DNA of 64,000 bases. Source: an uncultured bacterium. GTDB lineage: Bacteria; Cyanobacteriota; Vampirovibrionia; Gastranaerophilales; Gastranaerophilaceae. The notes beneath the pieces were generated by a model that was not told the origin of the DNA, searched no databases, and saw only the letters and a program-made list of their open reading frames with translations. Both the position numbers and the translations under genes were made by a program. The stretch lies in NCBI GenBank assembly GCA_902780525.1, contig CACZFL010000008.1, forward strand, positions 1-64,000. Reading direction: 5' to 3'. Shown piece by piece: positions 4,757 through 5,544 of the stretch (position 1 is its first letter; every line of letters starts with the position of its first letter).

Positions 4757-5301
4757 TTATCATTTATCTACCTCCAATCCATATGTTAACTAATACTTTT
4801 AACGCTATTGTTAAAAGCAATTTTTCGATATTTTGGCTTATCCTACGCAGCTATATTATGAGATATGTGATAGTTATAAATCTCGCAGCTTTGTCTTGAA
4901 TTATTCGGGGTGTCGGCACTCTGCCGAACAAAAACATCCAGTGAATGTTTTTGTGAGAGGTAAAACGTCCGACCTCCACCTTACGGGCTAGGCAGAGCCG
5001 TCGCCCTACCGAAAATTCGCTGTTTCAAAGCGAGTATGTTTTTATTATACACATTTTCAAAAATCACCTAAGGATTGTTAAGAAATTTTACATCTAAACC
5101 TAAAGTTCAATAGATTAGACCGTTACATACTGTTTTATACGCATCAAATGCCATCCCATATTATATTTGATACCGTTTTGGTGGACCATAAAAATGCCAA
5201 ACAGAGACTTTAGGGTAAATATATCTTATTTTTGGTAAGAATTCTCTTTTGCTGAGTCTCTCTTTTCTGAAACTCTGCTACTGTCGGGAAAAGTTGGCAT
5301 T
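4757..5301. other. Long non-coding stretch with structured repeat remnants
   Basis: No coding frame is convincing. It contains repeat copy B (4920-4960), preceded by TCGGCA-ctc-TGCCGA (4912-4926). On the minus strand at about 4960-5005, CCCGTAAGG followed by TGGAGGTCGG is tRNA-like. The motif TTACGGGCT recurs at 4981-4989 and 5453-5461 next to repeat copies. From 5040 to 5300 I see nothing functional. Confidence 0.45.
4920..4960 (+). repeat. Hairpin repeat element, short form (copy B)
   Basis: The sequence starts TCTGCCG and ends TGAGAGG. Between them is a perfect 10-base stem, ACAAAAACAT (4928-4937) with ATGTTTTTGT (4945-4954), and a 7-base loop. The ends match copies A and C, but the stem differs at paired positions from copy C (C/G here, G/C there). 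No T-run follows, so it is not a simple terminator. Confidence 0.65.
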
Positions 5302-5331
5302 AAAAAAAGGACCTTTCTCTAAAGTCCTTTT
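5302..5331 (-). terminator. Intrinsic terminator of tRNA-Ile
   Basis: On the minus strand AAAGGAC pairs with GTCCTTT and is followed by a run of T. It begins seven bases downstream of the tRNA-Ile 3' end and fits a monocistronic tRNA transcript. Confidence 0.8.
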
Positions 5332-5337
5332 AAAATC

Positions 5338-5411
5338 TGGGCCGCAGTGGACTCGAACCACCGACCTCACCCTTATCAGGGGTGCGCTCTAACCACCTGA
5401 GCTAGCAGCCC
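5338..5411 (-). tRNA. tRNA-Ile (anticodon GAT)
   Basis: The 74-base minus-strand sequence starts GGGCTGCTAGCTCAG and ends GAGTCCACTGCGGCCCA. The acceptor stem GGGCTGC/GCGGCCC pairs with one G-U. The D-arm (GCTCAGGTGGTTAGAGC), anticodon loop CTGATAA and T-arm (GGTTCGAGTCC) are all present. The anticodon is encoded at 5375-5377. CCA is not encoded. It is the parent type of the broken copies at 3073-3277 and 5463-5544. Confidence 0.95.
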
Positions 5412-5462
5412 TTATACTGCTATATTATTATAAACTTATTCAATTTTCAACTTTACGGGCTT

Positions 5463-5544
5463 ACCCTTATCAGGCCTCTCAGAAAAACCCTCAATGGTTC
5501 GGCTTTTTCTTCGGCAGAGTGCTCTAAACCTGAGCTAGCAGCCC
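5463..5544 (-). pseudogene. Broken tRNA-Ile-like sequence interrupted by a repeat (copy C)
   Basis: The 5' half on the minus strand (GGGCTGCTAGCTCAGG, 5529-5544, through GAGC at 5521-5524) matches the intact tRNA-Ile 50 bases away. A 44-base hairpin repeat then intrudes, followed by CTGATAAGGGT (5463-5473), the anticodon loop and 3' stem. The T-arm and 3' acceptor strand are missing. The interruption falls just before position 32 of the anticodon loop, the same place as in copy A. Confidence 0.65.
5475..5518 (-). repeat. Hairpin repeat element, short form (copy C)
   Basis: In element orientation it reads TCTGCCGAAG-A5-GCC...GGG-T5-CTGAGAGG. Compared with copy B, the ends are identical, and the base before the A-run and the base after the T-run change together (G with C here, C with G in copy B), so pairing is kept. 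The stem here is less perfect in its upper part. It interrupts a tRNA-Ile copy. Confidence 0.65.

Follow-up and report, generated by a model that had tools for sequence, protein, structure and literature searches.

The window, the whole 64,000-nt stretch of DNA analyzed in this study, carries an intact tRNA-Ile (GAT) gene and three copies of a small hairpin element (family A). Two of these copies break up tRNA-Ile fragments, with the intact gene lying on the minus strand between the two, and the third sits at the tip of a composite palindrome (Table 1). The copies occur in both orientations, as a preliminary description of this DNA had reported, with the copy in the composite palindrome on the plus strand and the other two on the minus strand. 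The window also contains two tRNA-Ile terminators (3338-3383 and 5300-5335), one adjoining the gene and the other 2 kb off; the distant one matches the terminator of a relative (G017, 96%). The 2 kb between them encode a lipase-like (UPF0227) gene and a small membrane protein and are possibly an insertion.

Table 1. Hairpin copies and associated tRNA-Ile features in the window
Feature	Position	Strand	Remark
Family A hairpin (ACTCTGCCGAAGAAAAAGCCGAACCATTGAGGGTTTTTCTGAGAGG) inside truncated tRNA-Ile copy	5475..5520	-	Pattern search; place and junction equal in three relatives
Truncated tRNA-Ile copy, nt 1-26 (GGGCTGCTAGCTCAGGTTTAGAGC), upstream of the 5475..5520 element	5521..5544	-	Compared directly with the intact gene
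Continuation of truncated tRNA, nt 32-43 (CCTGATAAGGGT)	5463..5474	-	
New leader of intact tRNA	5412..5462	-	TTGAAAATTGAATA motif, found in many such units
Intact tRNA-Ile (GAT)	5338..5411	-	
Native tRNA-Ile promoter-like motif (TTGATTT..TATGATA)	5599..5623	-	79 nt from truncated copy, 212 nt from intact gene
Family A hairpin, tip of dispersed composite palindrome (GGTGTCGGC..GTCCGACC)	4918..4960	+	
Composite palindromic repeat around the 4918-4960 hairpin	4893..4992	+	Common to four other genomes
Family A hairpin split by insert, in second truncated tRNA-Ile piece	3095..3266	-	
126-base insert within an arm of the split hairpin (GTCTTGGATT..AAAATCCGCT)	3132..3257	+	Related repeats in four other genomes
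tRNA-Ile piece flanking the split hairpin (ACCGACCTCACCCTTATCAG)	3072..3091	-	Identical to the gene
tRNA-Ile piece flanking the split hairpin, other side (CTCTAACCAC)	3268..3277	-	

The element has the layout 5'-ACTCTGCCGA-stem/loop-TGAGAGG-3' and a typical length of 39 to 47 bp, with a single hairpin per element and variable bases on either side. The three window copies share the ends TCTGCCG and TGAGAGG that the preliminary description had given, and the fixed ends proved longer than first stated, reading ACTCTGCCG at one end and TGAGAGG at the opposite end. The 170-base copy is this same hairpin, enlarged by the 126 bases inserted in one of its arms (Table 1). The foot of the copies found by pattern search reads ACTCTGCCG..GAGAGG, with no fixed tetranucleotide outside it, and its CTCT pairs with AGAG over an uneven internal loop. 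The reported switch of the pair flanking the A5/T5 runs is present (C-G at 4918-4960 on the plus strand, G-C at 5475-5520 on the minus strand), and the broader claim that folding is conserved while the sequence changes extends well beyond the window. In a set of 120 distinct hairpins, the eight stem pairs closest to the ends give 960 cells, of which 848 are Watson-Crick, compared with 493 (standard deviation, 11; largest, 524) over 500 shuffles of the 3' letters. The first stem pair is C-G in 45 hairpins, A-T in 26, G-C in 23, and T-A in 17, a G-G mismatch is frequent at the sixth position, and the loops fall into a few classes (TAAAT, TAAGT/TGAGT, GAACCATTGA, CCAGTGA, and TGT). The hairpin matched no Rfam family; tRNA and tmRNA were the sole Rfam finds.

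Searches with the end pattern identified 5 places in the window's genome; in the genus, 51 of 58 genomes contain copies, and the reversed pattern rarely matches. The further copies that the preliminary description called for are thus present in the genome, and pairing is preserved in the stems. Across the order, 203 of 286 genomes and 32 of 50 genera carry the element at 0 to 60 copies per genome, while the pattern finds no copy in the remaining 83 genomes and the reversed pattern, used as the control, yields 1 match in all 286. These counts are underestimates, since exact ends are required, and the genomes are mostly draft metagenome bins whose assemblies often break at these repeats. In a public genome collection, nearly all matches are Gastranaerophilales or gut bins; the four others, in Planktothricoides, Sulfitobacter, Chloroflexi, and Microscillaceae, appear fortuitous, and a hairpin test failed for one of these. 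From this distribution, the window's genome very likely belongs to a Gastranaerophilales bacterium. Carriage by phages was considered and rejected: four viral contigs match the pattern, and their flanks are unlike the other contexts. No large carrier element ending in the hairpin was seen among the loci read. Near-identical tandem units do occur, for example, as four 84-base steps ahead of tRNA-Val in G164.

Comparison of orthologous tRNA-Ile sites resolves how the occupied locus is built. The native promoter-like motif precedes the intact gene by 49 to 130 nt in eight relatives whose site is empty. In the four genomes with an occupied site, the motif is 209 to 226 nt ahead of the intact gene and 71 to 92 nt ahead of the truncated copy. 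From these distances, the truncated copy occupies the native place and retains the native promoter, with the intact gene displaced by an added 133 to 138 nt. Most relatives' tRNA-Ile genes are without the element, and such presence or absence at orthologous sites, together with dispersal and tandem amplification, is in line with the earlier suggestion of a small mobile or mobilized element. The genome G029 (L071) harbors another hairpin class at the equal junction, so that classes differ between species, which suggests that one tRNA-Ile site was used repeatedly or that hairpins were exchanged.

The arrangement at tRNA-Ile follows a general rule. A tRNA or tmRNA gene lies within 300 bases of the element in 107 of 235 contexts (∼45%), and the TGAGAGG side faces the intact gene in 100 of these 107. 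The tRNA-proximal copies are mostly located inside a truncated copy of the adjoining intact tRNA gene, where the sequence ahead of the element is the outer end of the neighboring tRNA, gapless up to the element. Sense junctions fall at tRNA nt 11/12 (37), 17 (1), 18/19 (21), and 26/27 (7), and antisense junctions in the T-arm fall at nt 61 to 66 (17). Past the element comes a short further stretch of the tRNA that never clearly passes nt ∼44. A fold-back often comes next, then a leader or terminator, and finally the intact gene, which is 25 to 95 nt off in nearly all units. Gene-free units of ∼90 to 140 bp are the rule. Direct repeats flank the element in 80% of tRNA cases; they are the tRNA ends themselves, of 10 to 27 nt, with a length set by tRNA structure, and the target duplications that the preliminary description proposed to look for were not found around the element, either in simple form or at a fixed length. 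A universal outer palindrome was rejected as a defining feature, its excess being only modest (score of ≥8 in 10.5% versus 3.1%).

An unbiased survey of tRNA genes and their flanks covered four element-bearing genomes and one that lacks the element, with truncated copies counted up to 300 bases from each gene. Truncated copies accompany 20 of 37 tRNA genes in the window's genome, 11 of 39 in G019, 8 of the 15 covered in G057, and 20 of 39 in G144, compared with 2 of 38 in G190, which has zero element copies by pattern. When tRNAs were paired with the flanks of other tRNAs as the null, the rate was 0 to 2.1% (0.7% for the window's genome).

The truncated copies of the window's genome hold family A and at least three other insert families. 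Their 5' ends contain family A, family B (AAGGACTCC..), or D-loop inserts starting with CC, and their 3' ends contain mostly an insert of ∼105 bases that starts with GTCTTG and lies between the T-loop GATT and CGAAC. Such GTCTTG inserts were read at L387, L393, L399, L401, and L414 in the window's genome as well as at L006 and L327, and the window insert at 3132 likewise starts with GTCTTG. Related families have other feet (AAGGACTCCG..GGAGG, AACAGAC..GATGTT, and CCCTAT..ATAGGG) around the same or similar inner hairpins, and elements are seen nested within one another. Many copies of the hairpin are located away from stable-RNA genes. Sites of other kinds include a truncated copy resembling the 3' portion of a 5S rRNA gene (L065 451-1089, G034:C17), short pieces resembling the 3' end of a nearby tmRNA gene (L016 and L023), and G+C-rich intergenic palindromes (CCCTCCC..GGGTGGGG and CCTCCCC..GAGGAGGGG; L048, L049, L156, L159, and L172).

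The element is sense to transcription in the 5' truncated copies and antisense in the 3' ones. This placement argues for a process at the DNA level and makes a shared RNA function unlikely. For the same reason, the stem covariation does not prove an RNA role, also because template switching is able to restore pairing in a DNA palindrome. The hairpin could still be under selection in stable-RNA operons as an RNA or regulatory element, such as a leader or trailer structure or a two-way terminator insulating the tRNA gene; its A-tract/T-tract stem resembles such a terminator, the covariation is strong, and it sits between the native promoter and the gene. We consider this distinctly unlikely, given the opposite orientations at the two gene ends, the many copies located elsewhere than at stable-RNA genes, and a distribution patchy enough to omit the tRNA-Ile genes of most relatives and, by pattern, the 83 genomes noted above.

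We propose instead that the hairpin is a nonautonomous palindromic DNA element of the Gastranaerophilales that enters single-strand folds at their tips or stem junctions, a reading that in our judgment could fall either way. Its chief targets would be the D-arm and T-arm of tRNA genes, with pieces of tmRNA and 5S rRNA, intergenic palindromes, and the elements themselves as further ones. Most likely, a tRNA gene strand would fold, the hairpin would enter at its tip, and the outer tRNA end would be duplicated, probably in the insertion event itself rather than earlier. Movement would presumably proceed as single-stranded DNA, driven by an enzyme or by the replication machinery. This would leave a truncated copy made up of the tRNA end, the element, and a short fold-back, along with an intact copy that has acquired a new leader or trailer, and the tRNA gene would survive because that intact copy remains. 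This rule may in part be an ascertainment filter, since insertions destroying the sole tRNA copy would be lethal. Two further points weigh against the proposal. The inner junction has lost 0 to 6 bases and gained 0 to 3, which is unlike clean transposition, and no more than about 45% of contexts adjoin a detected tRNA, many of the others being in composite repeats that may have brought the hairpin along passively as they spread. Tentatively, and with more doubt than belief, one may go further and envisage mobile hairpin DNA of a novel class. Such DNA would recognize tRNA genes by their folded tips, and a single event would both insert the hairpin and restore the tRNA through duplication of its end. 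Several unrelated hairpin families would then come under one rule (truncated end, insert, and intact gene) at about half of a genome's tRNA genes.

The small junction scars also fit template switching during replication with no dedicated enzyme. Forks stalled at highly transcribed tRNA genes would fold back, reverse-copy the tRNA end, and jump back, leaving truncated copies and nested palindromes, and this process would also capture the hairpins and maintain their pairing. The fold-back tRNA copies that follow the element, many of them closed by GAA or TTCG loops, are in agreement with this; in several units (L030, L035, L047, and L054), their 3' arm retains the tRNA bases that the element has replaced in the 5' arm, and mini-hairpins are commoner downstream of the element than upstream (0.435 versus 0.265). 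On its own, however, template switching provides neither a source nor a recognition step for equal fixed ends at unrelated tRNA genes and in 32 genera, and we regard it as an unlikely account of the whole.

No mobilizing gene for the hairpin was found among the candidate enzymes considered. The transposase of the IS200/IS605 or RAYT type suggested by the preliminary description is not borne out: the window's genome (98.6% complete) contains no Y1 transposase of either type, and RAYT genes are missing in genomes holding 44 and 28 hairpin copies. The hairpin resembles the repeats of REP/RAYT (TnpA-REP) systems in being one of many 20- to 45-bp palindromes, in tandem arrangement, and in its single-stranded hairpin logic, but it is without a GTAG/GGAG/CGTC foot, has fixed ends around a freely varying stem, is placed in tRNA loops, and has no tie to a RAYT gene. 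RAYT genes (family NF047646; closest solved structure, TnpA-REP 4er8) are present in 112 of 286 genomes of the order, and the mean copy number within the taxonomic family of the window's genome is 5.2 with RAYT and 2.9 without it (Mann-Whitney P = 0.002, a test that ignores kinship). A REP-like element mobilized by a RAYT (Y1 HUH) transposase, with the gene lost from the window's genome after the spread, would account for this weak association. Against it, 21 RAYT-bearing genomes have zero hairpin copies, the RAYT genes of relatives carry their own GTAG/GTCG-type REPs, and a hairpin copy is near 3 of 30 RAYT loci, in separate tRNA-derived or composite repeats; we therefore rejected RAYT/IS200 as the mover and hold the lost-gene version to be very improbable. 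The canonical REPs at RAYT genes form a separate repeat family (GTAG-GTTGGGCA..TGCCCAAC and GTAG-GGTGCGTC..GACGCACC; L110, L111, L112, and L242-L269). A reverse transcriptase was likewise rejected as the mover: 7 of the 12 genomes richest in copies lack one, among them the genome with 60, and zero-copy G190 has three.

Among known elements, the hairpin behaves as a miniature inverted-repeat (MITE) or small mobile palindrome of the general kind, with many near-identical, dispersed, noncoding copies and presence or absence at orthologous tRNA-Ile sites, but lacks a target site duplication of fixed length. The palindromic GC clusters of yeast mitochondria (GC42) are similar in being gene-less hairpins of ∼42 bp with presence or absence between strains and with merging and shuffling of hairpins, and their amplification mechanism is not settled (PMC4478555). 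In Neurospora mitochondria, too, conserved GC-rich palindromes are reported to flank tRNA genes (Yin 1981, cited in PMC4478555). Unlike the yeast clusters, the hairpin described here is bacterial, has no flanking AG/ACT duplications, has a more variable stem, and lies in truncated tRNA copies. We know of no truncated tRNA copies at the Neurospora palindromes. Rickettsia palindromic elements insert in genes and are tolerated inside the working gene, whereas the interrupted tRNA copy here is dead and an intact one adjoins it.

No prior description of these repeats was found in the literature searched, an absence that is no proof, and they look like an undescribed family of small mobile palindromes in gut Gastranaerophilales. 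They are unusual among known palindromes in their strict placement in truncated tRNA copies, their orientation rule, and the several insert families that obey it. The spread of small palindromic repeats is mostly obscure; at tRNA genes, target position, orientation, and outcome obey a simple rule. With many empty sites across hundreds of species, models based on a single-stranded DNA transposase, template switching, or RNA function make different and testable predictions. In some gut bacteria, dead truncated copies adjoin roughly half of the tRNA genes, which is relevant to genome annotation and to how the surroundings of tRNA genes evolve.

Truncated tRNA ends running from loop to gene end also resemble the att blocks of integrases, and the hairpin could be a recombination site or scar of integrative elements, either an attC-like folded site or an att scar at tRNA genes. 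Integron attC sites have conserved ends with a GTTRRRY core and a variable folded middle, with structure kept rather than sequence. The ends of the hairpin differ from GTTRRRY, an integron integrase (TIGR02249) is above the cutoff in 0 of 286 genomes, one element adjoins many different tRNA ends, and the units mostly contain no cassettes, all of which leaves this origin hardly probable. An array with genes at L047, included among the points in its favor, spans 3202-6450 (G005:C26) and consists of three direct copies of the tRNA-Glu 3' end plus hairpin at ∼1.6-kb spacing. The genes between the copies include an antitoxin-like HTH protein (PF21716/PF01381) adjoining a small ORF, and the arrangement resembles an array of cassettes at a tRNA gene.
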